Shown here: positions 1 to 47,583 of the stretch, piece by piece | Position numbering within the stretch: the first letter of the stretch is position 1 | How the letters are laid out: every line of letters starts with the position of its first letter | Assembly (NCBI GenBank): GCA_029945375.1 | Contig: CM057059.1 | Location: 4,154,001-4,218,000, forward strand | From: Agaricus subrufescens | Taxonomy: Eukaryota > Basidiomycota > Agaricomycetes > Agaricales > Agaricaceae | DNA length: 64,000 nucleotides | Reading direction: 5' to 3' | The notes under the pieces: generated by a model | Database searches by the model: none | Told to the model about the DNA's origin: nothing | The model's input: the letters and a program-made list of their open reading frames with translations, nothing else | Made by a program: the position numbers and the translations under genes

Positions 1-3000
1 GCCAGGGCCTGTCGACGGTCACCTGTCAGAGCAAGCACAACAACCAAAAACACAAGGGAGAGGAAGACAGACCTGGGTCTCTTCTGGCAAAGGCGGCCAT
101 TCACTGAACAAGGCTGACCACGACGACTTGCCCGTTCTCTCACTGTGGCTCTGGACCTTGACCTAGTTCGATTGAGATGAGACGAGTTGCTATCGGTCTA
201 TGGACTATGGAAGGTACTGACCCTGTAACTCGCTTTCCTGTACCCTTCATCCTCCTCATCACTGTCCAGCAGTGGTCCCACCTCCTCGGGCATATAGCGT
301 TGGCAAGCAGATGGAGAGAGCAACAAGCGGCAGGAGAGTTGAAAGACACCACTGGGAACGTTCATGAAGGTATTCCATCGGTCGCACCACTTGAGGAACA
401 AGTCTATTGCCTCCTCGCTGTGGCGGGTAAAGGACTCGGATGTGAGGCCATAGAGCCGATCCTCGGTCTGTCGGCTGTGGCCTGCCTGAAGAGCACTGAC
501 GGTGTCGGCGTTCTCAATTGTACTGAAGACCTCGAGCTCAGGACACCACTTGCGCTTGACGGTAATGTTGGCCTGGCGGTAGTCGGCCAGACCCAACTCG
601 ACCCCGACTCCCTTGAGAGTACAGTCCCTCATCTCCTTTGACAGCATATCCGAGTGCAAGACAGCACAGTCATCTGGGAAGAGAAAGACGTTGAGCAACT
701 TCTGGACGGCCATATCTCCAGGATAGAGGATCGACGCAAACAGCTGGGCTACTGGCGTTGCAAGGGCACGAAGCTGAAAGATCATGTCACCGGTGAAGGC
801 ATCAATCCCATGAGGAATAAACTTGTCTTGGCGGGTGAGCGTACTCATCTTGGTGTACCGACAGATGATTGACCAATGTGTGTTGATCTTGTAGAAACCC
901 CGGGCCTGGAGCGGCGTGTTGGTGAACTGGATGCAGGTGAGCTCGGTCCCGCGAGCCGGTGAGCCTCCTCCAATTTGTATACACACGGCCAGCATTTTGA
1001 AAGCCTCACAGTAGTGGCGATACCACAAACGAACCTGAGCAAGGTTCCAAATGGGCTCCCCGGTTCCCGGCCTGGCGCCATGCAAGAAGCGATCTCGAAT
1101 GTCCTTGTCGTCCAGCATGGCCTCTAATAGTTTCAGACTGTGCTTGTGCAGCGGCGTGTTCCGACGGTCTTTGAAGATGTTGTAGCCAGGTGTGGTGTCA
1201 GTCAAGTCATCGGCGATATGGTCATACTGAATGTACAAGTCCTTTCCAAAGAAGATCTTCTGATGGATAAAGCCAAATGCCTCCTTGACCATCTTGGGCG
1301 CCATTGTGCGGAAATCGGGAATAGAGATACGGCTTCCCCGAAAGACAAGCTCAGTATACTCCGGATTAGACCAGAACGAGGCAGGAAGGGAGACAGTGGA
1401 CATGGCCATTGCCGAGGCAAGATGCTGGAGGCTGAGGACGCTATTGAAAGTGCTACAGTCTACCTTTTCAGTACACATGAACTGGATCGCATCCATGCTT
1501 CCCACGAGTGTCTGACCGGGCTGGCTGGAGTGGATCTGGCGCAGAACGACGAGCCTGATACAGTAGGTGAGCTTGGCCAATAGGCCGGTGATGTCTTTGG
1601 GATGAGCCCAGCTGAGGTCGGGCTTGATAGAGGATAGGATAACAAAACACATGGTAGGGTCCCCGACGGTATTTCCAGCGGAGGGCTTCCAGCGATGGGC
1701 CCAGATTGACATCAAGACGTTCTGGATATGGGTAGACAGAGAGGACGGTGTCGAGGCAGGCTGACTCCCAGCCAGACGCAGTTGGTGGAGCGCCTCCCTG
1801 ACTTGAAGCGGTAGCGGCATCTCGTAGCTGCCATGATCCCGCAAGAGAAAGGTAATCAACCGGGTAACCTCATGGACATACTTGTCTAGCGTGGTGACCT
1901 TCTGGTGTGCATGGAAAGGGTCATTAGAGATTCCGCTAGCAAACGTTCCAAAGTTGAGTTTCCAAGTCCAGGTCATAGAGCATGTACTTACGATTTCTGC
2001 GGGTCGGCTGTGTTGAGCCTCTGAAGAATGAGCAACGGCGTCAACTCGATCAACGCCACGTCACTCTTGAACTTGTGTTGGACCGCCGGCTTGAGCCAAG
2101 GCATCTCCGTCTTGGAAGGGTCTCGGACCAGAGCACGAAGGTCGGCTGGTTTATAGGAATGAGTATGGTCAGCCCACTTGGTGAGCCTGAGGAAGTCGGT
2201 AAGCTCCCGGACGTCCTGATAGTTGTGAGTGTCCTGTTGGATTGCTTCGGTGATAAACTGTCTCTTGCTTTCCAGCCACTTGGTATCCAGTACCTCGGCC
2301 GTGATAGAGAGCAGTGCCGGCTCGTAGACCTGGAAATAAGAACGGCTGTTCTGGTTATCAAAGCGCTGTGCACAGACCAAGGCATAGCGAGTGGGTTTGG
2401 TGAGTTCAGGATGTTCTTTCCGGTGATGATAATCCATAGAACCTTGGGTGCCGTATATCTTCTTACACGTCGCAAACGGACAAAGGAGGGCTTCACGGTG
2501 GAGGGGTAGGCCGCTAATTGCATTGCAGGTCACAAAGACATCCGGCATTTGATTGACTATCTCGAGCTGGCGACGGACATGTGCAAACCTGTCTTTGTGG
2601 ATAAAGGGCTCCAAGACAGTGTGGTTCCTCTTGATGTGGCCCAAGGCGGTACTGGACGTGAGGGCGATCCCACAAGGAACACAGAGCAAGACTTTCCAGT
2701 CCCTATCATAGTACAGCCCAATGGTCGTCAAGTAGGGATCGCTGGCCAATGGCTTCCCAATATGGACACTGACGGTCTGCAGAAAAGTGGAAAACGGGTC
2801 AGTATGCTATTTACTCTGAGACAAAGAGAGTTGAGGACTCACAGGTGCCTTTGCCTCGTCTTCTGGCATGGCCGGGAGATTCTTCAACAGAGTTGCGTCA
2901 GTACCAAAAAGACAAAAACAGAAGGATGACAGGTCCTACCGCCTCCTCTGCCTCTATACCAGGCATAGACCTCTATGCCCAACATAGTTGTCAATACGAG

Positions 3001-6395: not shown

Positions 6396-7109
6396 TTACT
6401 ATGTACTATATCGTTCCAGTCTCTTGCCGCCGGTGGCCCAATTTCCGAATATGCTATCAGTTGTATTGATAATCATAGTTACGCTGTCGGTACTTCTTAT
6501 ATTGCGAATGTAGACCATAGTACACTATACTCAAATTTCACTATTACAAGTGCATACCAATACCACTCCCACCATCGGAGTGCCACCAACTGGCACCCAT
6601 AGTCAGTATTCTGTATCATTAATCCAGCTGACTTCCAACGTCTCAAACCACCCTTGATGTCAAACCTCTCACCACCACACTTAATTGAACTTTGAAAAGA
6701 GACATGGGACCGATAGCCGCACAAATCAGAGGCCTTCGGTCGAATGATTACTCAAAGCGATACACAGGAGTCAATAGCATCCTTGACAACCCTACCCCAA
6801 GCAGAAATCAATCGTTATCTACGTCGGCCGTTATCTACATTGGCCGCATTCACAGGAGCCGTGTAAACGATGCCCCAATCCATATAGCAAATGCCCCAGT
6901 TTGTTCTATGGGTATATTCATGTAACAAGACTCAGAAGTAATGTCTCTTTTGGCTTCACTTTCACTTTCAAACATCTGAAGAACATAATATATAACACCG
7001 GCGGAGCTTAACCACAGTCGTTCTAGCAGATACATGTGGACTGTCTCGCTTTCTCGGCCTGTTTCCACACATTCCCTCGGCACCAACCCCATCTTGATAT
7101 CATTGATAG
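6396..7109. other. Intergenic region, nothing recognised
   Basis: No open frame with plausible coding character on either strand. Contains CCGCCGG at about 6434 and ACCGGCGG at about 6996 as the only notable words. Confidence 0.4.
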
Positions 7110-7383
7110 CATCTCCTCGGCAGGATTGTTCGTACTAGTGATTACTCATGCCAAGCAGGAACGAAAGTGATATCCGCCTACACACAAATATCTCATCCCG
7201 CGCAGCGATCCTTTTCAGTGAGGTTTTTCAAATTCCTCGGCCGATACGGCAGGACTGTTCATGATTAAAAAGATTAGACATCGAAGTATGACCGTCGGAG
7301 ACCGATATTTACCGTTCTTCATCTTCATTTACTGTTTCTCCGCTTTTCGCACTCAAACCCGCACTTACTCGTCTGGATACACT
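7110..7383 (+). promoter_or_regulatory. Putative promoter/5' leader of the complete recombinase-helicase gene
   Basis: Sequence directly upstream of the ATG at 7384. It shares attactcatgccaag, gatatccgc and ctcggccgata blocks in the same order with 5790-5930, upstream of the truncated copy. Conservation of these blocks in otherwise diverged non-coding DNA suggests either recent duplication or a retained regulatory segment. No TATA box or transcription start can be fixed. Confidence 0.35.
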
Positions 7384-10300
7384 ATGAGCGCATCCCAACC
7401 TCGCACCAACCAACCAGGGCCCTTTCAGTGTACTCACTGTCACGAAAAACCCTTTGACCGAATCTCCGACTTTTACGTTCATCTTGCTATCTGTCAACCA
7501 AAGGTCACTGTGAGCTATCCCAACGCTGAAGTTCAACAGAGTCGGGATGTTCGTGGGCGTATCCCTTGCTACTGCTCTTCTAGCACCTGCCACCGTTTCT
7601 ATTACTCCGAAACTGAGCTTGTCCTCCACATTGATGGAGACGACGCTGAATATGTCGGACCCGCTCCAGAACAGGTCATTCACCTCTATCCAAGTCATCT
7701 ACTTGCCCTGACGCTTTAAATCACAGACTGAAGCTTCAGTTGCTGCCACTGCTGGCAGCGGTGCACCTGAGGCCAACCCTGTTGTTGAGGATAATGTACG
7801 TTGTCTTTTTTTTTCCCGTTAGATATATAGTCGCTTATCAATCACCAAATTAATTGTAGGTTACAGTCTTCTCCACACCGTCGCATGATTTGTCTTTTAC
7901 ATTCTCTGACGAGGGTGTTGATTTCAAGGCGCCTGTTCGTACCATCCATTTATCTATGCAAAACAATGTCACTGATCATGAGCGCCGTCTTCAGACTGTC
8001 AATGTTTACATCGGTGACCCTTTGGCCACCCACCCCGTCCTGACCTCCGTCGGGCTTTACCACAATGTGGACTGGAACATAATAATCTGCGCTTCCTGCG
8101 GTATTGGCCTCACTCGTAACACAGCCCTTCCACATGTCAGGCGCAACCATCCAGTCTTCCAAAGCAATATCAACCGGGACCGGTTTGCCACTGTCTGTGA
8201 TGATTTGGAAATCGTCGACCAGCTTCCCGACGTCTTCCTTGTCATTGAGCCCATAAGTGGCCTCCCTCTTCACCGCCATGCCCTTCTCTGTCCCTTTGCC
8301 ACCTGCAAAAAAGTGTACGGCACCCGAGGCTCTATGGACTTTCATCACCGCAAAGAGCATAAAGAATGCCCTAAGCCGGCTCACTACAATACCGTCTGTG
8401 CCCAGCGTTTCGACAACCAGAAAAGTCGGTCCTACTTCCAAGTCAAAGAACCGGACCAGACAATTATCCCTACCGCACTGCTCAACGCCGAGTGGCTGAC
8501 CGCCAAAGAAGAGTTCATTACCCAAGCTATACAGGAAGATACACACAATTATCAAGATGTCCGTGCCCTCACCGACTTTCTCCGCATCACAAAATGGCCC
8601 GACCACACTCGACCTTACAAACCCGCCAATCTTCGCGATCTTGTTCGCGAACCTGCTAACAACGAGTTGGCATGGCTGAAACCGGCAGTCCTCTACAAGC
8701 TTCGCTCAGATGTCTTACTCATTGAGTTGACACCTTTGCTCATACTTCAGCGTCTCAACACAGCAGATCCGGCCAAAGGGTGAGTAGAGTATCTCACTAC
8801 TATCTCTTCATGTATCGTGACGCTGATGTTTTTTTACAGCGGTATTTCCAACGAGCCCTTTCACGCACACCAGCAGCCCGCTACGCTAGACAAGTACATG
8901 AAGGAGGTCTACAGACTTCTCGCCTTCTTGTTGCGTAACCGGGGTGATTACCAGATGCCTTTGTCGACAACAGTCATGGAGGATATCCATAAACTACGCG
9001 TTGCCGGCGGCCACCCTGCCTCAACCCCTGCTTCCCTGTCTCCGCTCATACAAAATCTACTCATGTCTCTGTGGTCTAACTTATGGATCCCGCAGCCTGG
9101 GAACACCGTCGGCGACCCAACCATGTGCTTCATTATCTTATCGTCCATTAAGTCCGACCTCACATTCCTGCAACCTAAAGACATCACCCCTCTCCTTGCC
9201 CGACTCACGTACAACATTCGCCTCGTTATCCTCCGTCAGATCCATTCTAGTCCCGCCGGCCAGACCCTCGTCCAGTCCATGGAGGCGCTCCAGTTTATGT
9301 GCACGGAGAAGATTGATACAACGACATTCAATAGTATCATGAGTCTCCAGCACTTGGCGACCTCCATCGCCATGAGGACCATTTCTCTTCCTTCTTCCTT
9401 CTGGTCCAACAATCAGTATACCGAGGTGGTCTATCGTGGCAGCCGGGTCTCTATGCAGGACTTCTGTAACATGGCACCAGACATGATCAAGGAGACGTTT
9501 CAGTTTATCCACGAAAACCTTTTTTTGGGCAAGGACCTTTATATTGAGTACGACCACATCGCCGATGACTTGTGGGAGCGTTCCCCTGGTTATAATATTT
9601 TCCAGGACCATCGCAACAGCTCTCTTAAAGGCAAGACACGGCCTTTACTTCAAGCTATCGTTGAGGACGCCAGCCTTCGATCTCGCTTTCTACATGGGAC
9701 TCAACCGGAAACCGGAGAGCCTATTTGGAACTTGTTTCAACTTCGTTTGTGGTATCGTCAATACTGTGAGGCGATGAAGCTATTGGCAGTCTGCTGCCAG
9801 ATTGGCGGAGGGTCACCGGCGCGAGGGACGGAACTCACCTGCATCCAATTCACCAATACGCCTCACCAGGCTCGGGGCTTCTTCAAGGTCGGTACTCATT
9901 GGGTGCTCTCTTGTCAGTACAACAAAACAAGTGCTATCACCAATCAAGACAAGTTTGTCCCTCACGGCCTTGATGCGTTCACGGGGGACATGATTTTCCA
10001 AGTTCGCGCTATTGCTACTCCCTTGGCCCAGCTTTTTGCTTCTATATTATACCCCGGCAACATGGAGCTCCAAAAGCTCCTCAACGTCTTCCTCTTCCCC
10101 GATCATCATGAAATCTTACACTCAGACTCGTTGTCCAAGGAGATGCGTATTCGGACGCTCCGTAGTTTGGGTGTCGAGTTGGGAATCGCTGACTACCGCC
10201 AGTTGAGCGTTGCCATTCGTCACAAGAAATGTCCTGAACTTGAGATCCTCAACAATCTCGATCATGTTGACACCGTCGGTGCTCTCCAGGCAGGTCACAG

Positions 10301-12950
10301 TCGCCAAACGGAGGATCGTATCTACGGTATCACCCATGAGTCATTCAATGGTCATAGCGAAGACATGATCTCCCTTTTCCTGCAATCTAGTGATCGATGG
10401 GATTACTTTATGAATATTCCTAGTGGCGCTTTCCAGCTCTGTTGTCGGCTCCTCTTGTCACCTTCAACTTCTCTACCTTTCATCTCCAGAGTTCGAAGCG
10501 GGTGCCGAGACCCACAGCATGACTCAGATCTGGCTGAGCCCAATTCTTCCACCCTACCCTTGGTATGTATCTTGACTCTATTTACTTTTCAATGCGACTC
10601 ACAGTCATAAACAGGTCTCTCTTAAAGGCAGTCCCGCCCCGCCTATCACCCAGCCGATGTTCAGTCAATGGCCTCCGAAAGCCACCGAGCATCAGGTAAG
10701 CTATTTTGAGACCTCATCACGCTGTCTGAGGCTGACCATCGGTCCACGATCCTATAGTCATTAGAAGAACTGCAGTCGCGATGCTTAAAGGTTCTCCGCG
10801 ATCTGTTGAAGGATCCTAATGCGCAGTGGACATCCGAGGAACAGAAGAATGCCGTGCTCGCCGCTGCCAGCCACTGTGGAGATGTTGTCGCCATTCTCCC
10901 CACCGGCGGCGGTAAAACCATGATCCCACTCATCTCTGCGATGCTCACCAAGTCGTCTCTCACGGTGTTCGTGCTTCCCTTTGTTTCGCTGGTACAAGAT
11001 TACCAAATCCGGTTGAAGCGGATGAAGATCCCCTTTTCCACGTTCAATTCTTCGACCACTCGAATCTCCAGCACCAAGCCCGTTCTCCTTGTTACGGCTG
11101 AAATATGTCACACACGCCATTTCACGCAGTGCTTAATGGAAGCCCACCACCGCGGCATTCTCGTTCAAGCGTTCGTCTTTGATGAATTTCATACTGTCCA
11201 TACTGCCGCCCATTATCGGGAGTCTCTCCAACATATTTACGCCCTTCGTTCAGTTCCCGCCAAGTGGATATTACTCTCTGGCACCATTCCTCCCAATTCC
11301 CTTGACAGTATCATGCACAAGTTTGACCTCCATACGAATGCAATCATCCTACGTGCAGCTACTAATCGCCCGGAGCTTCAGTATGTTGTTCACCCTCCCC
11401 TTCAGACGGAAAACAGTGTGATGGACACTGTCGTGCATGCCTATGCTTTGAATAAGCAACAGTGGAAACCGGAGGATCGAGGACTTGTCTATGTACCCTA
11501 CACCGATCTTGGTTGGGAGCTTGCTGGTCGCCTCCAATGTGACTTCTACGCTGGGTCTACCAACATGGGTGATGAGGAGAGGCGCGAGAAGTATCAACGG
11601 TGGATTACAGGCGAGAACGATGTGATGGTCTGTACCCATGCTCTCGGATGCGGCAACGACTACCCTCATGTGAAATGGGTTTGCCATGCTGGGACTCCCT
11701 ATGAGATGATCAATTACGTCCAGGAGGTTGGTCGGGCGGGCAGGAATGGCGAGCCTGCATTGTGTGAGATGGTGCCGAAGATGAGGGCGGAACCGGCTCT
11801 CGCCGATGGATCTTTCGACCATGGTGGTTCTCTTCATATGCACAGTCTAGTCTTTGAACGCAACCGCTGTATCAGGCTGGCTATTACCGAGTTCACCGAC
11901 CGCGTTGGTATGATGTGTAAGGACAGTGTACAAAACCAGCCCTGCAGTTACTGCAAGCCCTTCCTTCCTTCTTCGCAATCCCCTACCCTCTCTCAGCCCG
12001 GGCCACTCGCGACGCATACCGTCGGCTCGCAAGTCAGTACCCTCCCTGGTTCATCCTTCAGCCTCTCTCAGCCACCAATGATTCACACCGTCGGCTCCCA
12101 AGTCAGTACGCTCCCCGGTTCATCCCCTACGCTCTCTCAGCCACCGGTGAGGCAAGCCGTCGGCTCACTAGTCAGTACCCTCCCCGGTTCATCTCCCACC
12201 CTCTCTCAGCCACCGGTCAACCACGCCGTCTCTTCCCAAGTCAGTACCCTCCGTGGCTCATCTCCCACACCTAGTACCTCGCAAGCGTCAGTCGGTTCAT
12301 CTGTATTCCCTTCTGGTATCATACCCGCACCGGTATTCACTACGGCATCTAAGCTGTTATCCAAACGCCCGTTACGTGACTCACCTCCCCAGGCTGATGT
12401 ATCTCAAGTGTCGACATTGTCTTACGGGAGCAACCCTTTCGTCGTCCAGGCGGCAAATTCCAAGAAGAGGAAGATCGAGGACACAGTCCAGCAAACCCAA
12501 TACAATAAGCGGATCCAGGATGCACTCACTCTTATTCGGGACCAATGTACATGTTGCCTTGTCAAAGGCCGGGATGCCTCGGGTCATATGGCCAACAACT
12601 GTCCCGGCCTTGGCTTCAGTGATATGAGGGCGTGGAGGCAATCGCACCCTGTCCGGTTCACACGCCAACTTCATGGCCACACATGCTTTCGATGCCACAT
12701 GCCCCAGAACGAAGGTAGCTGCCATCCGTTCACTTCTTCGGCTCAAGAATGCCCGTTCCCGGACCTCGTTTTACCGCTTCTCTGGACTATTTATCAAAGT
12801 CCTCACCACCGCCAGGCCTTGCAAACCTTTTATGAGATGCATATTTCCACCCCCATCACTTACACTACCTGGCTCTCTGCAAGGCCGGTTCCAGGTCATT
12901 TGAATAACTCGATGGCTACGTTGCTCTGGTTCGTCGAGCAAGAATTGTAG
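7384..12950 (+). CDS. OrsD-like zinc finger - tyrosine-recombinase-like - RecQ-type helicase fusion, complete copy 2
   Basis: Six exons: 7384-7674, 7727-7795, 7860-8779, 8840-10562, 10615-10695, 10758-12950. They total 5277 nt with consistent phases, giving 1758 residues. Order: C2HC finger (~15-40); OrsD/DUF3505-like fingers (~197-290; C-x2-C and C-x4-C, each with HxxxxH); recombinase-like domain (~430-1000) with R755 in PARGTEL, K789 in QYNKT, R880 in IADYRQ, and H913 and Y922 in GHSRQTEDRIYG; helicase from ~1029 with LPTGGGKT (K1081), DEFH (1170-1173), LSGTIPP and QEVGRAGRNGE (~1350). A Ser/Pro linker repeats SQVSTLPGSS four times; then come a KKRK nuclear signal and a Cys/His-rich tail. 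The H-to-Y spacing of nine is that of lambda Int and Cre, but the first H of HxxR is Ala877. RecQ-like helicases of this kind are known near fungal telomeres. Probable role: DNA recombination and unwinding in the nucleus, perhaps for its own mobility. Its stop lies 40 bp from the converging dioxygenase gene. Confidence 0.88.
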
Positions 12951-12990: not shown

Positions 12991-15900
12991 TTAGTTAGAC
13001 AACAATCCAAACGGTCTACATATTTCTTTCCATTCCGCAAAATTTTGCATCCTCGTAAGCTTGCAAAGTGCATGCTCTATGAGTATATCCCCATAACACA
13101 TCAACTCCCTTTCTTCGTCTGTAAAGAGCTTTGCTATCGTTCGCTTCACCTCTGCAAAGGAGGCCGTGATCTCATCGGTTGTAGCAACTGGATAGCCAAG
13201 TAGTTTCAACGCCTTTTTCGATCCTCTGTTCTCATATATCGCCAATCCCATTTCCTTCTCTGTCATAGGTTTCACTAGACCCGCCGTCACATAATCAGCT
13301 GCCAAAAGATACGCCGTGAGCGGCCCAAAACCAGGAAGTGTCGGACTCAATGCCTTTCTGTAGAACTGTTCAAAGGTCAGGCGTCCGTCCGTCAACTCTT
13401 TGTCTTGAGCCCACTGTTGAGCCACGTTCCAATAACATTTTGCTGCCAGCGGCGTTCTACCCGTCGGTGTACCATAGCAGAAAATGTTACATACATAACC
13501 ATTCACCTTTTTCTTTTTCCACGTCAAGGGGCTCTGAGATTCATGCTCCTCATTCTCCCCTAAAGGTCTGTGTGGACCGTAGGCTTGCCTCCACGCGTCT
13601 AAGTCTTTGAATACCGTCGGATGTTCTGAAAGGAAGTTTGTCGACATGGTGATACCCCGGAAAACCAAGGCGCTGAAAAAACCAGACTCCGTTCTCAACA
13701 CCTCCTCAGAAAACGGCCCTCCAGGTTGCAGCACACGCCTTCGGGATTCGGCGTAGTCCCGGAAGACAAGCCGCTTATCCAGGTTTTTCTTGACGATGCT
13801 GAGGAATATCCTCTGCGACTTGTTCCACGACGAAACTTGTTTAGGATCACTTGCGGTAAGAAAGGGAAGGGAAAGCCACAAAATTAATCCCAATTGGGCT
13901 AAGTAGGGATGTTGCGCCAAGATAGAGGCCTCTACACTGTCATCCAGGGATTCTAGACGTGACAGATAGGCTGTGAGTGCCGGTTGCTGCACATCTCCTC
14001 CTTCCATCACTGGTTCCCCCCTTTTAGACAACTTGGAAAGCAGGACCCCCAGATTCGGGAACTCCTCCTCGCACTTTTCCTTGACCTCCCTGAGTTTCTT
14101 GGACCATCTCCTGATATCAATGTCACAATGCTCGGCGAAGCGAAGGCTACACATCGAGCGCACAAACTCTACGGATGGCCTCGTATGTATACCCACTGTA
14201 TACTTTGGCTTGTGCCGAAGAAAACTGACAACACTGTCCAGTAACAACACCTCTACTCCAAGGTGTTTCACCAAGGTGTCCGTCAAAATCGCTGTAACAC
14301 GGTTTTCCATCGAAAGTCCCCAGAATGAGCCCAACACCAGTATCATCACATCATCAACCTCGAGCGTTCCCTTCTTCCACTTTACCAAACCAATTTTGTC
14401 ATTCGTCTTAAATTCCGCTCTTGTAAAGCAAACTTCATCTTGGGTCGACGGCGGAGAACTGGAGGAAATGTCGGACCACTTCACTTTCAGATATCGCTCC
14501 ATCTGACGCTTCGTTTTCTCGATCATAAAAATTTCTACTAGTACCCGCAAAAAATGTAATGGATGGGCAGGGTCCTGCGACCGAGCCACCTGGGTCTCTA
14601 TTGTGTCCCAACACAATAGGTTGCCTATCAAGAATTGGGTCCCCGTCAATGTTCCGGCCACTTGCAGGGTGAAATACTGATGGTACAATTGCCGGAGTGG
14701 CAAGACCCAGTCAGCTATAGACGCGATATTGAATTCGGCGACCGCGTTGATCGGTAACAGTATAGGTAGTACGACCCGTTTGATTTCGTCTTTGACCAAA
14801 GAGAGACTCTGCAGGGTCCCCGTTAAATCATGTTCGGTCACCTTCGGAAATGGGGTTAACCAAGTGAAAGCTACAAACTTGAGTTCCTGGGTCAGTCACA
14901 GGTGTTAATCTATCATACTCACCAGTAAGGTCAATATCATCCCTCTCTTCAAAAGGATTCGGTTCCTCATCCTTAATTGGCTCGCACTCATCATCAGCCA
15001 CTATCTTTCTTCTTTTGCTTTGCCGTCGGTCCATGATTTGCTTGACGGACTCAGATTTATCCTTGGCTTCATCTCTACTTTTCCTCTTATTCCCTGACCC
15101 ATTAACTTTTTTTTGGCCTCCCGAACACTTTCCACTGGCGCGAACAATACGCATCTCCCGTGTCTCCGGCGGTGGCTTGTTCAGTGAGCGTATCATGCCA
15201 TTTCTCGCTTCAAACACACTCCGGCAGCGATGGTGGATCTCCTCTCGGCTTTCCATCACACCTGCGTCTCTTCCCCGGGCTTTCACCCGCTCTTGCTCTT
15301 CACTCAAATAGCTGAATGACCCAATGAAAGCCTCATAATCGATTCTGAGATCGACTTCGGGGTCCGCCTGATGTAGCTGATATTCGATCTGCTGGTGAAA
15401 ACATCGGGCGAGCAACTGAACATATGCTTTTCTCTCCATGATCCCTAAGCCGTCATGGAGCAGCGTAGTGAGCCGCTCGCCGCCGGTGGCGTTATGCTTC
15501 CTATTGTTGGCGTGAGCGGCGTGAGCATGGTGTGGCGCGTTGTATACTTACCAGCTTTCCCTCATCTCTGAAGTATGTTTCACAAGTTCACCGTCCGGTG
15601 TTTCACCTAGGGCAAGAGACCCGTGGTTGTGAAGGACATCTTTCGGTGGGTAGCAAATTAAAGTGACTCTGTAATAATCACTTGCGGGCGCCGTTCTTAC
15701 CGGTCGATACACCGGTTGAATACCCGTATGAAGATATAGGCCTGAAAAGTAGACGGCACATAACGGCGGTATCTCAAAGCACAAACCCAGTCCCAGAATG
15801 GAGAAAAGTTCTGGCGCAACATCAGGATGATCATGGCTCAGATTGAACATGCACGTCAATCCAACAGGGGAGTCCTGCTCATCACAGTGAGAAGCACCAG

Positions 15901-16886
15901 CGGTGCCGAGGGTTTCAATATGGTGTCCTACAAAACAGTCAACTTAAATCAATTGAACGCGGTCGCCAAGTGTAGTCGATCTACTTACCTTGTGAATCTC
16001 CTGTAGACACCGCTCTCGCGACATTGAGTTGCATGGAGGGATAGCAGCAATTTTCTTCAGAGCCAATCCGTGGCGTGTTGTAAATGTTGGCCATGTTTTC
16101 CATGACCTCAAGCAAGGGCGCCGCTTTCTGGCTCAACCCCGAAATGGCGCACTGAGAACCTATCTGATGTCCAGTTTAGCGTCACCCATTCGAGTGGTCT
16201 TTATCAAGTGCTCGTACCTTTAAGACCTTTTTGGGGAGGTCTAGCGATGTATTAATACTCTTACTCATCGTTGACGCTACTCCAGTCATTGTCCTTGGTT
16301 TTTGGTAGGTGAGGCCAAGGTTGTAGCAATGTTTTCCTCGGCCATTGCTAGTCGCTCTTCCTTCAAGGTGTTCGTAGGCAATCTTGCCTTCTGATGGCGA
16401 TCCATTCACCTCTTTTCGGAGTGTAGCGAGTTGATCCGCATTCTCCTCGCTAAGTGTATCTCTGATCCGTTGATCGGTCTCCGGTTGTCAATAATAGAAC
16501 ATGTAGAGTAGACGTACAAGGGAAGAGTCGTAGCCACCAAAATGTCTGTGTCCGGCGGCCCGCCATCGGGATTTTTCACAAACACATAACAATTTTCATC
16601 TGCATGTAAAAGCGGTATTCCTTTTATCCTCCTTGTTATTTGGTTTTCTGTGATATATGGGACAAAGATTCTCACCTTTTTTCAAAGCATCATCTACCGA
16701 CTGCACTGGTGATGTCTTTGATGCACGCTGCTTTGCACGTTCTAGGTTTTGACCCACTTTGTATTCGAGCACATAAATTTTGCAAGCCCTGTCAGTGACA
16801 CAAGGATGGGCTTCTACCTCCTCAACCGAAGGCCAATCGACTGGCCGATTCTTCAGTAATGTTTCGAGATTGTTATTATCGTTCAT
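12991..16886 (-). CDS. TET/JBP-like 2OG-Fe(II) dioxygenase fused to a hypermodification-type helical domain
   Basis: Seven exons, 16886-16676, 16599-16518, 16461-16218, 16163-15989, 15927-15552, 15500-14923 and 14870-12991, sum to 3546 nt with matching phases (1181 residues). Residues ~225-335 hold a 2-oxoglutarate/iron oxygenase pattern: SHCDEQDSP (H251, D253), then LYLHTG (H304) and YYRVTLICYP (R324). In TET/JBP enzymes these bind iron and 2-oxoglutarate and oxidise a base methyl group in DNA. A basic, KRKSR/SKRRK-rich linker (~430-540) follows. The C-terminal ~620 residues end with TLPGFGPLTAYLLAADY (~1066) and DILIEHALCKLTRM (~1150), which recall the helix-hairpin-helix-like LPGxG and D(V/L)EHxLCExDKY signatures of the 5-hmdU DNA kinase helical/aGPT-PPlase families of phages and fungi. 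That match is from memory and is the weaker half. Likely nuclear. It converges on the recombinase-helicase gene with a 40-bp gap. The oxygenase could instead be AlkB- or prolyl-hydroxylase-like. Confidence 0.8.
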
Positions 16887-17134
16887 GGCAGTAAGTGTCG
16901 AAAGTCTCTATATGACTCACTGGCTCCACTTTACACCTGACGGCTTGCTTACTCCACTTTCCATATCTAATCTCTTTTCCTTTGCACGCACAAACTGGCT
17001 AAATGAGCACAGTGCCGACGGTGATCCAGCTTTGTTGAATGAGAATACTTTTGTATTCTATCAAGCGATAACTGCATGCAATCCACAATGTTAAGTTGTT
17101 CTACAGTCAGACGAAGATCTTTGTACACTTTTGA
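16887..17134. other. Upstream region of the dioxygenase gene
   Basis: Non-coding; includes CCGACGG at about 17012. Nothing else recognised. Confidence 0.35.
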
Positions 17135-18330
17135 GAAGAACCCACGTGACCAATATATCAGTATACCACAACGGTGAATAGACCTTTCCCCTCATATTTT
17201 GCAAACTTATAGTGTTGTTGTCGGATGTAGTGATAAGTACAGAAATTTATTGATGATAATAATATGTTCCTGACGGCTCCCAACTGTTGTAAAGTTGCGA
17301 TTAACCGATGAGACTCCTTCTACCAATATTGCATAATAACGAGTAACGCTTGTATCTTCACTTTTGGATCACTTATAGCACCGTAGGTGAGTATAAATGA
17401 AAGTACACGCATTTTATGATAATATTATTGCACCACTTACGGATTCCAACCGTTGTACATTTTCGATTAGCGCACGTGACCACATTTTCAGTATATCACA
17501 ACGGTGAGTAGCCTTTTCCCTTCATCTTTTGCACACTTATAGTGCCGGCGGAGACTGTAATGATAAGTACTAACCCTTATTTATGACAATAATGTATTAC
17601 CGATGGCTACTAAGCGTTGTAGACCTTCAATATGCCATGAATCCCCTTCTACGGATATTTTACCCCAGCGAGTAACGCTTCTATTCTTATTTTTGGGGCC
17701 ACTTACAGCACTATCTGTGAGTATAATGCAAGTACACGCACTTTGTCATGATATTATTGCATGACTTATAGATACCACCCGTTGTACACTTTCGATTCGT
17801 GCACGTGACTGCCTTTTCAATATATCACAATGGTGAATAGCCCTTTCCTTTCATCTTTTGCAAGCTTATAGTGCCGGCGGAGACTGTAATGATGAGTACA
17901 TTCATTTGTTAATCATAATAATGTATTACCGATGACTACTCAGCGTTGTAAATTTTCAATATCCCATGACTCCCCTTCTACCCATACTTCACAACCGCGA
18001 GTAACGCTTTTATCCTCATTTTCTGGTCACTTATCGCACCGGCGGTAGATGTAGTAGCGCTTTAACGGCTATCGTGCTGATATTATTATATGACTAACGG
18101 ATTCCAACTGTTGTGCACTTTCGATGAGCGCACGTGATCAATACATCAGTATATCGCAACGGTGAATAGCTATTTCTCTTAATCTTTTGGTGCCAGCGGT
18201 GACTGTAATGATAAGAACAGAGCCTTTCAGATGATAGTCTCGTACCGCCGACGGACATGTTATGTTGTTTAGGTTCAATGAGTCCATGTAACCTCTTCTA
18301 ACAGTGTATCACAAAGGTGAATTATCCTTT
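17135..18330. repeat. Decayed tandem repeat, about 3.6 units of ~330 bp
   Basis: The anchor (a/g)tatatc(a/g)caacggtgaatag occurs at about 17167, 17497, 17826 and 18155, a period of 329-330 bp. Each unit also carries a CACGTG hexamer just before the anchor, an actta tag(t/c) block, usually followed by CCGGCGG plus actgtaatgataagta, and cgagtaacgctt in mid-unit. Identity between units is perhaps 70-80% by eye. Half units recur to about 19.9 kb and again at 21.8-22.3 kb. No coding capacity. Confidence 0.8.
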
Positions 18331-18787
18331 TGTCCTTATAGTTGGACACTCAGAGTACCGGCGGTGAATGAAATGATACACATAAGATTTTTCTGAGCAT
18401 AATATTGTGTCATTCACAGATAACACTCATCGTACATTTATAATAAACCCTGCTGACCACTTCTAAAGCACACAGACGAGCGCCCATTAATGAGGATTCA
18501 ACATAGGCATGCGATGCCATGTCTAGCCTCATAGACCAAATGATGATCGCGAGCTCTAGACATATAGTGCGCCGTCGGCAAGGTACTGTATTCTCTCTAG
18601 TTAAACAATTCCTGCCGTCCTCTGAACACAATTTCGACCTGAGGCTCGTGCACAAATAACGATAAGCTCCAACGTTTACCGTTTATCATCGGAGGCGCAA
18701 CTTTCGGTAAAGAGACAATTTCGAACCATTGTCAATCCTTACTGTATCAATGACAAGTATTCTCAACTCCAGGTCGGTGTTTTCACA
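18331..18787. other. AT-rich non-coding sequence with repeat fragments
   Basis: Contains degraded pieces of the ~330-bp repeat (accggcggtgaatgaaatga at about 18357; gccgtcgg at about 18573). No gene supported. Confidence 0.4.
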
Positions 18788-19270
18788 ATGGTTCTTATGT
18801 CTTTGGCTAACTCTCTATTGGCCGGTAGTGGACATATGCTCTCGACAGTCAAGGGGCCGTTCATTCGAATTTTTGGACCGCTGAAATTTGCGGGATTGTC
18901 GCCGGCGGACAACGCTGCTCTGTGTACTTATCTGCCTTTGCTTTGGCCGAGTCTCTTGGAACGCCGGATTAAGCTGCGCTTGAAGGGCCCAATCGTTGGG
19001 CTGGTAATGTAGCTCTCGTGGTCTCATCAGACTTGGACGCTGCTGACTTCAGGTAGGGGGGGCGCGCATCACAGCAGGGACGAGCCTTCGAGTGTGCCCA
19101 AGCACTTGACCGTTCGATTCTATGATCGGTCGCGGAAAGCATTCGCGACAGCCCATGTACCCCCAAAACTCGGTGAAACCGTCGCAATTTACTCTACGGT
19201 CAACAAGAAATGGGATGGCCTGCACTTTGATTTGGATTTTAAAGAGTTGGTCAAGGTGTCTGTGGCGTAA
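18788..19270 (+). pseudogene. Possible small gene or gene remnant of unknown function
   Basis: An ATG at 18788 opens a frame that is GC-richer than its AT-rich surroundings and continues, interrupted only by one in-frame TAG at 19010-19012, to a TAA at 19268-19270. The downstream part reads KHLTVRFYDRSRKAF, then VAIYSTVNKKWDGLHF and ends KELVKVSVA, which looks protein-like (alternating beta pattern). Removing the stop by splicing would need an intron of only 27 nt, shorter than any other here. It may therefore be a disabled gene, or a gene whose introns I have not solved. Family not recognised. Confidence 0.3.
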
Positions 19271-20062
19271 AAAGTGCTATATTTTGTATTCAATTGAGCT
19301 TCTATTCTTAATTTAGCACATCTATACTCTCCAAATTATCTAATCTGAATCCGTTCTTCTATCTACTACGATCCTGAACGAGTATATGATGGTATATGAA
19401 CGTATACATATACGCGGCTCCACCGCGCGCTCCCCGTGCGTGTGCTCCTGCAAGTGTTTCTGTGAGTTCCTTCTACAGACATATCACAGCACTGAGTAAT
19501 ACTTCCATCGCCCTTAGTTAGTCACCTATAACACCGGCGGTGAACGTAATCATAAGTCCAGCCTTCTGTGTTGTATCTTCTCAAACCAGTCTATCTGTCA
19601 ATCGTAAGGGCGAATACCCCGTTCGTCTTTTGTAAGTTTCTACCACCGTGGTGTGCTGTAATAGATAAATACAGGACCTCCTCGAGGATAATATATTGTA
19701 TCACCGACGGTTCATAACTGTCGTAAAGTTTTAACAAGCCCATGTGAACACTTCTACCAGTGTATCGCAAACCCGAATCTCTGTCATGCTATATTTTTGT
19801 CGACTTATAGCACCGGCGTTCATTGTATCCATAAGTACAGCCTTTCTCTTATGGCAATTTCCATTACCGAATACTACTGTAAAGGCTTTATGAGGATGTG
19901 TGATCAACTTAAACGGTGAGTAGAACTGTGGGTAGGCACTTTAACTTCAATATCTGGTGTATCGTAGCGTAGCGCGAGTGCAGACTGTCAGCACTACAGA
20001 GACTCTGATGTTATCCATCTACATTCTCGGAGGATTGTAGAGACTCTACAAATTTCTATCTC
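19271..20062. other. AT-rich non-coding sequence with repeat fragments
   Basis: More pieces of the 17-18 kb repeat: caccggcggtgaacgtaat at about 19535, accgacggttcataactgt at about 19703, agcaccggcgttcattgtat at about 19813. No open frame of note. Confidence 0.45.
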
Positions 20063-36192: not shown

Positions 36193-38104
36193 CTCCTGAG
36201 CAGTATTCCTTTCGCGATCGCAACGACATCGAGCTTACATACTACAGGTGGGTAACCCCTCTTCTGTGTATTTCACCACTATTATGGCTTTTATAGTCAA
36301 TCTCCGCCTATTCAAACACTGACTATGGGTCCTTCCTCTGCGAGTTAGGTAGGGCTGGTGGGCGAGTTCTTACGGGTACAAAACTCCATACTTCATATGC
36401 ACAAAAATTGGTGCAGCGTTTTGTTCCGATCACAACGAAAGTAGACTTTATAGACTAGAACAAGCGTCGCTAATATATATATCATAAGTATCATGGCTTT
36501 TATAGCAAATTCACGCACGTTTTCAACACCAATAACCCTATCACTGTGTTCATCATCAGAGTGATATACTCATACTTTTCTTCTCGCTGGCCGTGGTGGT
36601 CCTGAGCTCCTCAAGCGTACACAAAAGGCTTACTTTGAACGTCCTACCACCGCCCTTCCCTACCTTCGTCTGTTCCAATCCAAGGTTAGTAAGGAGCGGG
36701 GCCACCCGGGGATCCGGACTATCGTGGGGTTTATAATGACAGTACACACATTGTAACACCCACAGTGCATCGGCAGGCACCCAGGCCCTGTCGATGACGT
36801 CTTGGTGTACCCCCAGCGTGTGTACGCCAGCGGCGGTGGTCAGCAAGTCACCATCGTGCTTGGAATGTGGTAAACTGTGCCCCTCAAGTTTACACAAACG
36901 GTTTACTTTGACTGTCATACAACTGCCCTTCCCTACCTTCGTCTCTTCCAATCCACGGTTAGTAAGCAGCGGTGCCGGCGGGGTCCGCCCATAGAGTAAG
37001 CGCAGGAAAGAGGTTAGTATGCAGCGGTGTTCTTTTGTTGCTGCCCCCATTGGTTCAGTCCATAGTCCGTTACATCGGAAGCACTCAAAAATAATGGTTT
37101 CAAAATCTATCCCACCGATGAATCTGAATCAGTCCATTTGTCACCACGGTGCTTGTCTGGATGACTTTGATTCCGCTGTATCACTGTGTTTATCATCAGA
37201 GCGATATAATGGTGCTATTATTTTCGCTGTTCGTGGTGGTCCTGAGTTCCTCAAGCGTACACAAAACGCTTACTTTGAATGTCGAACCACTTCCCTTCCC
37301 TACCTTCGTCTGTTCCAATGTGTATGCCGGCGAGTCGCTATCGCGGTTGAAATGCGGTAAACACTGACCCCCACTCTCCTGGATCCTTTGACGGCGAAAC
37401 TACGCATGATAATAGCAAGAGAAACCTGAATATCCGCCTTCTCGCGCTCAGTTTGACGTATCAAATACGTGGCAGTCGTGGTACTACGCACCCCATGGAT
37501 TATGTGTAGTACCCCCTTCCTCGTTGCTGTTCATAGCTTGATCTCACGATAGGGACAACTGTCAAGGCTGTGAACTAGCACCATAGCCTGCCTAGCGCTT
37601 ACCGGACTATTGTGGGGTTTATACCGACTAGACTGTAAGAGTGTTGTCACACCGACTGCGAGTCAGGGAAGCTCTTGGGTCCTGTACATGACTTCTTCCT
37701 GTTGGTCCTGAGGTCTTCAAGCTTATACACAAAGCTTACTTTGAACATCATACCACTGCCCTTCCTCACCTTCGTCTCTACCAGTCCAAGGTTAGTATGG
37801 TTACTTTGAACATCGTACCATACCCCTGCCCCACCTTCGGCGCCGGCGGGGTCCCGTATAGACACAGAGGGCAGAGAAATGTTAGTAGGGAGCAGAGGTC
37901 TTCTGTTACGGCCACCATTGGTTTCTGTCCATCTTTTGTTATAGTGGAAGCACTCAAAGGCACTCGTGGTTGTACTGAGCGGCTCAAGGGTACACAGAAC
38001 GCTTACTTTGAACGTCGTACCACTGCACATCCTCAGCTTCTTCTCTACCGGTCCAAGGTTAGTAAGGATCGGCGCCGGCGGGTTCCACGCATAGGGAAGG
38101 CGAG
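36193..38104. repeat. Dispersed ~90-bp repeat block leading into the GA-rich satellite
   Basis: Several copies of a segment with ctcaagcgtacacaaaa, cttactttgaacgtc and ccttccctaccttcgtct (about 36612, 36890, 37250, 37697, 37980) separated by unrelated sequence. Larger copies 36547-36700 and 37186-37330 also share the atcatcagagtgatata start. Most copies end gttagtaaggagcgg, close to the ggttagtagggagggg core of the next satellite, so the satellite may have grown from this sequence. No gene supported. Confidence 0.6.
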
Positions 38105-41100
38105 TAGTGAGGGGCCCTGGGTCTAGAGAAAGAGGTAGGAGTAGGGAGGGACACCCCAGAAAACGAGGCAGGAGAAAGGCTAGTAGGAGGGGCGCCACCG
38201 GCCCCGGGCTCAGAAAAAGAGGCAGGAGAAAAATTAGTAAGGAGGGGCACAGCCAGAAAAAGAGTCGGGAGAAAGGGCAGTAGGGAGGGGCGCCGGCCCC
38301 GGGCCTAGAAAAAGAGGCAGGAGAAAGGTTAGTAAGGAGGGGTGCCCCCAGAAAAAGAGGCGGGACAAAGGGCCGTAGGGAGGGGCGCCCAAGGGCCCCG
38401 GGGATGGGAACAGAGGCATGAGAAAGGTTAGTAGGGAGGGGCGCCCCTCTGCTCCGCCCATAGAGAAAGAGGCTAGAGAAAGGGTAGTAAATAATGGCGC
38501 TCTTCTGTGGCTACCACCATTAGTTCCGGTCCATCATCCGTTACATCGGAAGAACTGAAGAGCAATGGTTTCAAAAACTACGCTACTGATGGATCTGTAT
38601 CAGCATAGAAAAAAAGGCAGGAGATAGGTCAGTAAGGAGGGGTGCCGCCGGTGTGCGTCTATAGGCAGGAGAAAAGGTAGCAGGGAGGGTCACCACCGGG
38701 CCCGGGACTAGAAAAACGAGGCAGGAGACAGGTTAGTAGGGAGGGGCGCCCCCATAAAAAGGGAAGTAGAAAGGCTAGTAGAGAGGTTCGCCCCGGGCCC
38801 GGGCCTAGAGAAAGAGGCAGCATAAAGGTTAGTAGGGAGGGACGTCCTGAGAAAAAGAGGCAGGAGAAGGGGCAGTATGGAAGGGTGCCCAAGGTCCCCT
38901 GGCAGATGGAAAGAGGCATGAGAAAGGTGGGTAGGGAGAGCCGGCCCCAGAAAAAGAGGCAGGAGAAAGGGTGGAGGAGGGAGGTTAGGCGCTCGCAGAA
39001 AAAGAGGCAGGAGAAAGGATAGTAGGGCGGGGCGCCGTGCCCTGGGCACAGGAAAAGAGGCATGAGAAAGGTTAGTAGGGAGGGGCGCCACCAGAAAAAG
39101 AGGCAGGATGAAGCACAGTAGGGAGGGGCGCCCAATAGTGGAGTGAATGTTTGCTTGGGCTGCAACAGGAACAGTAGGAGCTGCAACGGCACTTTCACGT
39201 ACAGGTAAAGTTGCAGTGGTAGCTGAGATTCTCTCCCTTTCCGAAGTGAAATCAGCACCACCCGAGCCTTTACAATCCAAGGGAACCAGCTCGAGCAATG
39301 GTCTCAAAGGCTATGCTACCGATGAAAGCATACCAGCATAGAAAAAGAGGCAGTAGATAGGTTAGGAAGAGGGGCGCCGCCGGGCTGTGCGTATAGAGAT
39401 AGTAGCGAGAAGTGCCTGTAGAAAAAGAGGTAGGACAAAGGGTAGTAGGGAGGGGCGCCGCCGGGCTGCGGGCCCAGGAAAAGAGGCATGAGAAAGGTTA
39501 GTAGAGAGGCGTCCCCAGAAAAAGAGGCAGGGGAAAGGGTAGTAGGGAGGGGCGCCCAAGGTCTCCGGGCCTAGTGAAAGAGGCATGAGAAAGGTTAGTA
39601 GGGAGGGGCGCCCCCAGAAAAAGAGGCAGGAGAAAGCACAGTAGGGAGGGGCGCTCAAGAGTGGAGTGAATGTTTGCTTGGGCTGCAACAGGAACAGTAG
39701 GAGCTGCAACGGCACTTTCGCATACAACAGGTAAGGTTGCAGTGATAGCTGAGATCCTCTCCATTTCCGAAGCGAAATCAGCACCACCCGAGCCTTTACA
39801 ATCCAAGGGAACCAGCTTGAGCAATGGTCTCAAAAGCTATGTTACCGATGAATCTATACAAGCATAGAAAAAGAGGCAGTAGACAGGTTAGGAAGAGGGG
39901 CGCCGACGCGCTGCGCGTATAGAGAAAGAGGTAGGAGAAAGGGTAGCAGGGAGGGGCGCCGCCGGGCCCCGGACTAGGAAAAGAGGCAGGAGAGAGGTTA
40001 GTAGGGAGAGGAGCCCCCAGAAAAAATAAGAAGGAGAAAGACTAGTAGGGAGGGGCGCCCACAGAAAAAGATGCAGGAGAAAGGGCAGTCGGAGGGGCGC
40101 CGCCGGCCCCGGGGCCTAGGAAAAGAAGCCTGAGAAAGGTTAGTAGGGAGGGGCGCCCCAGGAAAAGAGGCAAAAGAAAGGGTAGCAGGGAGGGGCCCCG
40201 GGCCTAGAGAAAGAGGCAGGAGACTGGTTAGTAAGGAGGGGCGCCACCAGAAAAAGAGGCAGGAGAAAGCACAGTAAGGAGGGGCGCCCAAGAGTGGAGT
40301 GAATGTTTGCTTAGGCTGCAACAGGAACAGTAGGAGCTGCAACGGCACTTTCACGTACAAGGGATAAAGCTACAGTGATAGCTGAGATCCTCTCCCTTTC
40401 CGAAGCGAAATCAGTACCACTCGAGCCTTTATAAGCCACGGGAACCAGCTTGAGCAATGGGTTCGTAATCTATGCTACTGATGAATGTGTATCAGCATAG
40501 ACACAGAGGCAGGAGATAGGTCAGTAAGGAGGAGCGCCACTGCGCTGTAGAGAAAGAGGTAGGAGCAAGGGTAACAGGGAGGGGCGCCGGAAAAGAGGCA
40601 TAAGAAAGGTTAGTAGGTAGGGGCGCCCCCAGAAAAAGAGGCAGGAGAAAGGGTAGTAGGGAGGGGCGCCCAAGGTCTCCGGGCCTAGTGAAAGAGGCAT
40701 GAGAAAGGTTAGTAGGGAGGGCGCCCCCAGAAAAAGAGGCAGGAGAAAGCACAGTAGGGAGGGGCGCCCAATAGTGGAGTGAATGTTTGCTTGGGCTGCA
40801 ACAGGAACAGTAGGAGCTGCAACGGCACTTTCGCATACAACAGGTAAGGTTGCAGTGATAGCTGAGTTCCTCTCCCTTTCCGAAGCGAAATCAGCACCAC
40901 CCGAGCCTTTATAAGCCACGGGAACCAGCTTGAGCAATGGGTTCGTAATCTATGCTACTGATGAATGTGTATCAGCATAGACACAGAGGCAGGAGATAGG
41001 TCAGTAAGGAGGAGCGCCACTGCGCTGTAGAGAAAGAGGTAGGAGAAAGGGTAACAGGGAGGGGCGCCGCCAGGACCCGGGCCTGGAAAAGAGGCAGGAG

Positions 41101-47100: not shown

Positions 47101-47583
47101 CTTTGGGAAGTGTTAGTAAGCGCAATCAATGATGAGTGATGCGCGAGTGAACAGCCACCTCAAGGGATCCTCTGGCTTGAACGCCACTTTAGGAAATATT
47201 GGTAAGGGAATCAGCCGAATCTCTCCGCTCCTAGTGAAAGAGGCATGAGAAAGGTGGGTAGGGGGAGGCGCTCCCAGAAAAAGAGGCAGGAGAGAGGCTA
47301 GTAGGGAGGGGCGCCCCCAGAAAAAGAGGCAGGATAAAGGATAGTAGGGCGGGGCGTCGCCGGGCTCCGGCCCCAGGAAATGAGGCATGAGAAAGGTTGT
47401 GGGGAAAGCAAACCCCAGAATTTTTTTGCAGGAGAAAGCACAGTAGGACGGGGCGCCCGATGGTCGAGTGAATGTTTGCTTGGGATACAACAGGAACGGT
47501 AGGAGCTGCAATGGTACTTTCACGTACAACAGGTAAGGTTGCAGTGATAGCTGAGATCCTCTCCCTTTCCGAAGTGGAAATCA
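38105..47583. repeat. GA-rich satellite array with constant GGCGCC core (~9.5 kb)
   Basis: Head-to-tail monomers of roughly 45-65 bp: gaaaaagaggcaggagaaag, then gttagtagggaggggcgcc, then either cccag or a GC-rich variant (gccgggccccgggcctag). GGCGCC, itself palindromic, is the most constant word. Monomers differ by small insertions and substitutions, so the array is old and heterogeneous. Because monomer lengths often keep a frame open, long Pro/Leu/Ser-rich minus-strand frames appear throughout (up to 356 codons at 41451-42521); I regard these as translated satellite, not genes. Local unique interruption at about 43105-43250. Confidence 0.9.
39141..47581 (+). repeat. Twelve interspersed ~205-bp segments, each with a 64-65 codon ORF relic
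   Basis: Within the GA-rich array a non-GA segment starting gagtgaatgtttgcttggg recurs at about 39141, 39664, 40294, 40776, 41273, 42352, 43075, 43741, 45187, 45879, 46559 and 47465. Each runs to ...tatcagcatag where complete. Several copies (39147-39341, 39670-39867, 45194-45391) keep one plus-strand frame: MFAWAATGTVGAATALS, VAVIAEILS(L/I)SEAKSAPPEP, ending DES(I/L)xA. Others have frameshifts or changed starts. Spacing between copies varies from about 480 to 1450 bp. Unknown origin. Confidence 0.75.

Follow-up and report, generated by a model that had tools for sequence, protein, structure and literature searches.

A multicopy, helicase-paired gene of Agaricus subrufescens may fuse an oxygenase to a remote relative of phage DNA-hypermodification domains

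Phages are thought to hypermodify thymidine by way of 5-hydroxymethyldeoxyuridine (5hmdU), with alkylamine transferases and a DNA kinase taking part (PMC6449724). Rhodococcus phage Tonitrus carries annotated Tet-like, aGPT-Pplase2, and kinase genes, two small ones separating the Tet-like gene from the aGPT-Pplase2 gene (PMC11955845), and in Gordonia phage CaiB we found consecutive genes with likeness to Tet_JBP (E value 5.6e-4, under the cut-off), ADDT (5.1e-27), and Ploopntkinase3 (7.8e-59). According to Kojima 2025 (PMC12730594), fungal transposons with TET/JBP genes lack any added protein that would modify the base further. Here, we analyze a gene on the minus strand of a 64,000-nucleotide stretch of Agaricus subrufescens DNA (contig CM057059.1, positions 4,154,001 to 4,218,000), referred to below as the window. 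We lean, by a modest degree, toward reading it as a fused enzyme for oxidation and follow-up modification of DNA bases, carried in a multicopy helicase-linked module. The gene and its parts, in window coordinates, are as follows.

12991..16886, minus strand: whole gene, seven exons, 1181 amino acids, 2-oxoglutarate (2OG)-Fe(II) oxygenase-like plus HMUDK_hel/ADDT-like part (splice model, paralogues, homologues)
16676..16886, minus strand: exon 1, start codon at 16886 (splice model)
16518..16599, minus strand: exon 2 (splice model)
16218..16461, minus strand: exon 3 (splice model; matched in paralogues)
15989..16163, minus strand: exon 4, where the oxygenase region begins (splice model; alignment of homologues)
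15552..15927, minus strand: exon 5, oxygenase core with H251-x-D253, H304, and R324 (positions, invariance, TET/JBP comparison)
14923..15500, minus strand: exon 6, helical stretch and charged linker (splice model)
12991..14870, minus strand: exon 7, C-terminal region (profile comparisons; fold hint)
~13380 down to 13048, minus strand: HMUDK_hel-like part in exon 7, residues ~1053–1163 (profile comparisons)

An independent splice search, with GT..AG introns of 51–76 bp, reproduced the seven exons joined in phase that an earlier sequence-only reading had proposed. The model, predicted from sequence, encodes 1181 residues plus a stop; the runner-up was 135 residues shorter. The two C-terminal stretches singled out earlier, TLPGFGPLTAYLLAADY and DILIEHALCKLTRM, were found in the spliced protein, and H251-x-D253, H304, and R324 stand at the positions claimed for them. 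We compared seven sequences. Besides the window protein, these were three diverged paralogues and, from two other fungi, Agabi119p4_10365 (P0003) of Agaricus bisporus var. burnettii and P0001 and P0002 of Ramaria rubella. The locus tag suggests that P0003 is a protein of strain H119p4; in its best local alignment, 40% of the query was covered at 47% identity. Two of the protein searches scored the ~8000 candidates sharing most words, and further relatives may exist. In a six-sequence alignment, in which the other five are 48, 42, 36, 22, and 24% identical to the window protein, H251, D253, H304, R324, G1071, E1154, L1157, and C1158 were invariant; P0003, the seventh sequence, carries the same motifs. 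Such recurrence across diverged sequences indicates that the motifs are more than chance.

The C-terminal region was compared with HMUDK_hel by hhalign, whose E values refer to a single pair. The seven homologues scored 36.7 (probability 37.9, E value 3.4e-4), a score reached by none of 200 column shuffles (mean 13.0, maximum 21.7), which break local order and are thus a lenient control. Other regions of the protein and the reversed profile scored 12.8–14.5. A first comparison with twelve HMUDK_hel sequences had given a probability of 48.2 and an E value of 1.8e-4 over 98 columns spanning both motifs; global alignment against the twelve gave a probability of 5.8, and eleven sequences gave 29 (E value 5.8e-4). 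With the full-length alignment, probability went down to 15.5 and the E value up to 1.7e-3, the region picked being unchanged. The twelve rows were one fungal sequence (the host gene described below) and eleven chosen from 474 phage records with a match. The E-x3-C motif was read from the alignment; a pattern search misplaced it in 4 of the 12 rows. Against ADDT, E values were 0.011 with eight sequences and 0.0055 with nine (chosen from 407 records or their neighbors), 1 of 150 shuffles equaling the score each time, and 0.27 with a single ADDT sequence. HMUDK_hel and ADDT matched each other at 0.03. As a hint from fold comparison, the top viral match of the exon-7 structure model was a phage amino acid:DNA transferase (ADDT; probability 0.95, the next match 0.10).

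Neither curated Pfam profile, HMUDK_hel (PF18723) or ADDT (PF18724), matched the window protein, and the genome scan with HMUDK_hel matched one gene, on contig C13. In that gene (C13:1450141-1451052, 346 bits), a chromodomain is joined to a canonical HMUDK_hel domain. The profile comparisons argue that the C terminus of the window protein is a remote homologue of HMUDK_hel. The similarity to phage hypermodification families noticed earlier thus survives as remote homology and not as membership; a hidden Markov model search with HMUDK_hel succeeded profile to profile and failed with the curated profile. The C terminus was not placed in an unrelated family.

The N-terminal region carries the 2-His-1-carboxylate set and arginine of the 2OG-Fe(II) oxygenase superfamily in all seven sequences, with spacings of 52–53 (D253 to H304) and 19–20 (H304 to R324) residues. 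Its resemblance to TET/JBP, predicted from profiles, is suggestive. A profile of ten TET/JBP sequences (7 of 91, the host's own, and two PDB fragments) aligned over 76 columns with an E value of 0.053, and 1 of 200 shuffles equaled it. The score of a three-sequence TET profile was reached by 15 of 100 shuffles, and that of three phage Tet sequences, one of them out of frame, by 10 of 100. Hence the likeness depends on the profile, the third of three supporting it. An AlkB profile of two sequences scored higher, at 18.8, than the three-sequence TET profile, at 14.2, in an alignment of 11 columns from which the catalytic residues are missing. Curated Tet_JBP (PF12851) was not listed for the spliced protein at E values up to 10, and a genome scan with it found four places, none in this gene. 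The residue set read from the letters is confirmed; the TET/JBP assignment is suggestive in its profile likeness and finds no echo in Pfam. Three of the genomic matches, at C2:3846077, C7:2235142, and C14:163711, have equal scores and probably represent a recent multicopy TET gene.

Wider scans returned little. In Pfam and NCBIfam, no family exceeded its cut-off for the gene. The best Pfam rows for the spliced protein, both under cut-off, were DUF3782 (E value 0.18) and DUF4834 (0.47), and at E values up to 10 no oxygenase family appeared, in a scan that used no profile aimed at prolyl hydroxylases. PHROGs gave a single row for exon 5 (0.45) and nothing for exon 7; NCBIfam gave a single row for exon 7 (0.062), nothing for exon 5, and for P0003 four rows, of which the best (0.042) falls in the acidic linker. 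PADLOC had no match for exon 7, P0003, or P0001. Among PDB sequences, the best value was 0.28 for exon 5; the oxygenase profile returned no rows, the C-terminal profile one (0.92), and the HMUDK_hel profile none at E values up to 1. Exon 7 matched 66 distinct PDB sequences (E values up to 10), of which the best 60 were all human immunodeficiency virus gp120/gp160 (best 0.0032 over 34 residues); we judged these to be chance matches. P0003 had no match in phages by tblastn, nor had the host HMUDK_hel gene in viral contigs. Genome searches with aGPT-Pplase3 and ADDT profiles gave no match, nor did these profiles match in any control.

We searched the host genome (44.65 Mb, 44 contigs) for copies of the gene. 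Matching pieces group into ten loci, nine of them less than 190 kb from a contig end, the exception being at C3:1.53 Mb. Three contig-end stretches examined held just 1–2 TTAGGG each, so the contig ends are not established as telomeric. The window copy and those on C4 and C10 share a 99.9% identical stretch from window position 4096, extending on C4 to 28810 (24.7 kb), as far as pieces were taken, and on C10 to 23793 (19.7 kb), where it is cut by the contig start. Contig C1 holds two loci with 99.99% identity across 9.8 kb. Long spliced models were obtained for the three diverged lineages, C3b, C1, and C3c; in the last, the first exon is uncertain. The C3:1.53 Mb locus is split, with stops, that on C5 is decayed, and that at C3:4.12 Mb is a fragment. 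The internal decayed copy (C3:1526330-1537570) retains ~87–88% DNA identity to the window gene and is split by ~7 kb of other sequence.

The gene has a partner at most of these loci. At eight of ten, a RecQ-family helicase match lies tail-to-tail with it, the two matches ending 27 to 70 bp apart; no helicase was found within the 10 kb examined around C3c or around the C3:4.12 Mb fragment. Given the duplications, the eight paired loci represent about four sequence lineages. This multicopy, helicase-paired context is the part that the sequence-only reading had not anticipated. In the window, the partner and the open reading frames (ORFs) before it are:

10758..12950, plus strand: RecQ-family helicase ORF (Pfam DEAD, Helicase_C), tail-to-tail with the gene; their stop codons are 40 bp apart
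7860..8783, plus strand: OrsD-like ORF (25.4 bits in Pfam, slightly short of the cut-off of 26.6), present in the C4 and C10 copies as well
8784..10610, plus strand: 608-amino-acid ORF, family unassigned, in the same frame as the OrsD-like ORF and before the helicase

The helicase ORF matched TIGR00614 recQ_fam (E value 2.3e-31) and DpdF (1e-32), both below curated cut-offs. The OrsD-like ORF probably belongs to the same module as the gene. No kinase was found among the neighbors examined in Pfam and NCBIfam scans. A second copy of the OrsD-like and 608-amino-acid ORFs (~67% DNA identity) occupies window positions 198–2806 on the minus strand, and its helicase runs on just outside the window (C3:4153999-4152068), tail-to-tail with the C3b paralogue; two modules therefore lie side by side. 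Upstream of the gene start, at 17121–18226, are about three imperfect ~330-base repeats, also present in the C4 and C10 copies. Farther along the window (~37600–50400), inspection of the ORF list by eye picked out long open frames that look repetitive, most of them on the minus strand.

Under the favored reading, the N-terminal TET/JBP-like 2OG/Fe(II) oxygenase would hydroxylate the methyl group of a pyrimidine. The C-terminal relative of HMUDK_hel/ADDT would bind the oxidized base in DNA and carry out, position, or read a follow-up modification, and the protein might mark or protect the module or nearby DNA. The gene model, the conserved motifs, the remote homology of the C terminus, the copies, and the helicase pairing rest on observation; DNA as the substrate of the oxygenase, a catalytic role for the second domain, the order of the steps, and the marking or protecting role are inferred. 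Several results weigh against this reading. On the N-terminal side, hhalign of the oxygenase region with TET/JBP gave a probability of ~1, and the oxygenase fold was not obtained, the region being modeled at a predicted local distance difference test (pLDDT) score of ~30. For the C terminus, the hhalign probabilities of 15.5 to 48 are low taken by themselves, and the match drops to E values of 0.022 with the Ramaria rows alone and 0.014 with the fungal HMUDK_hel alone. PGPG and C-E-x-x-K, invariant in the 11-sequence HMUDK_hel alignment except for the first P, are respectively lost and changed to C-K-x-x-R in all seven sequences (the cysteine stays, glutamate turns into lysine, and lysine into arginine); with its motifs so altered, the C terminus may use other chemistry or only bind. 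Structure models were poor overall (mean pLDDT 42.8 and 39.9). The ADDT fold match itself has an E value of 0.037, a template modeling score of 0.21–0.24, and a root-mean-square deviation of 29 over 505 columns. The P0003 model had no row named ADDT or HMUDK_hel among the best 50 of 101, Foldseek on PDB returned nothing under 0.84, and the exon-7 model had no glycosylase among its best 50 VIA rows, absence from these rows not being counted as exclusion. Finally, an exon-by-exon genome search found no phage-type P-loop DNA kinase above cut-off (best E value 0.42), so chemistry via a phosphorylated base is not established.

The alternative that survives best, to which we assign an appreciable but minority chance, is that the helicase and oxygenase pair is a selfish element, transposon-like or tied to chromosome ends, whose oxygenase counters silencing, a role that has been proposed for fungal transposons bearing TET genes. 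This explanation concerns context and is compatible with a fused modification enzyme. The ten loci, with split, decayed, and fragmentary copies among them, agree with it, as do the TET genes carried by many fungal DNA transposons (Kojima 2025, PMC12730594). Yet the flanks (6500–7900 versus 16880–19500) had no common 12-base inverted or 14-base direct repeats, and the newest copies lie within the long 99.9% stretches on C4 and C10, which indicates segmental duplication rather than single-gene hops. The tie to transposons that the sequence-only reading mentioned for basidiomycete TET/JBP expansions was not borne out for this gene in the flanks tested, and its partner is a RecQ-family helicase.

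Rather unlikely, in our estimate, is a TET/JBP-like oxygenase joined to a helix-hairpin-helix (HhH) DNA-glycosylase-like reader or repair domain that binds or removes oxidized bases, in demethylation and not hypermodification. The best PDB rows for the C terminus of the P0003 model were 8-oxoguanine glycosylases and MutY, and the changes to PGPG and C-E in all seven sequences would suit such a domain; however, the usual HhH-GPD catalytic residue pattern was not visible by eye, and profile and viral-fold similarity favor HMUDK_hel and ADDT, in a comparison run without a glycosylase profile. Least probable by a clear step is a 2OG oxygenase whose substrate is a protein, RNA, or small molecule, the C-terminal likeness being no more than a distant fold kinship, for although the TET/JBP similarity is weak (0.053) and the AlkB profile outscored the TET profile in columns that miss the catalytic residues, both parts of the protein lean to DNA-base modification families and its partner gene encodes a RecQ-type helicase.

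If the reading as a fused modification enzyme is true, the fusion would supply a second step of modification, in a eukaryote, beside a helicase of the type reported at chromosome ends. In its most specific form, the reading would have a single eukaryotic protein oxidize a pyrimidine methyl group in DNA and then join an amine or amino acid to it, so that helicase-linked modules at the ends of fungal chromosomes carry a hypermodified base, in a fused counterpart of the phage oxidize-then-decorate pathway; we consider this unlikely as a whole. A testable question follows: do these fungi have a hypermodified base in their DNA, concentrated near chromosome ends? Our literature search found no account of this gene among the titles and abstract openings listed, an earlier description being possible, and nothing joining 5hmdU kinase with basidiomycetes. 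The main text of Kojima 2025 (PMC12730594) has no mention of RecQ, OrsD, or subtelomere, and that of PMC7473861 none of the word dioxygenase.

How, then, does the locus compare with known systems? Its HxD, distal H, and R follow one another as they do in TET/JBP proteins (PF12851; CcTET; the fungal PU, AG, and PE types); it differs in having no Pfam match, the host's three Tet_JBP copies sitting elsewhere. In PE-type TET proteins, which were recognized by structure-based comparison, the hallmark is HxE (Kojima 2025, PMC12730594), whereas the window gene has HxD. With HMUDK_hel and ADDT, it shares an ordered G-x-[FL], a tyrosine-rich helix and [DN], and then E-x3-C-x3-[KR], matching HMUDK_hel by profile and an ADDT protein by viral fold; unlike them, it lies below Pfam detection, has lost PGPG, reads C-K-x-x-R, and is joined to an oxygenase-like part. 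The HMUDK_hel-chromodomain gene of the same host is at another locus, has a different fusion partner, and keeps PGPG and C-E-x-x-K. The helicase pairing recalls A. bisporus var. burnettii H119p4, where 19 RecQ gene models, all subtelomeric, are reported (PMC7473861), a location resembling that of the helicases here, mostly toward contig ends.

Phage Fortunato was dropped as a case of a native oxygenase-ADDT fusion; the first part of its ORF is arginine-rich and not alignable to Tet proteins. The annotated 522-amino-acid ORF (KX589269, 1258–2826) seemingly has a wrong-frame first part over the Tet region, before the true ADDT domain. The CaiB and Tonitrus clusters also encode an oxygenase together with a transferase-type protein, in separate genes rather than a single polypeptide, and with a kinase, which was not seen among the fungal neighbors examined. 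By analogy, the fungal protein would join the counterparts of the first two phage genes, Tet and transferase.
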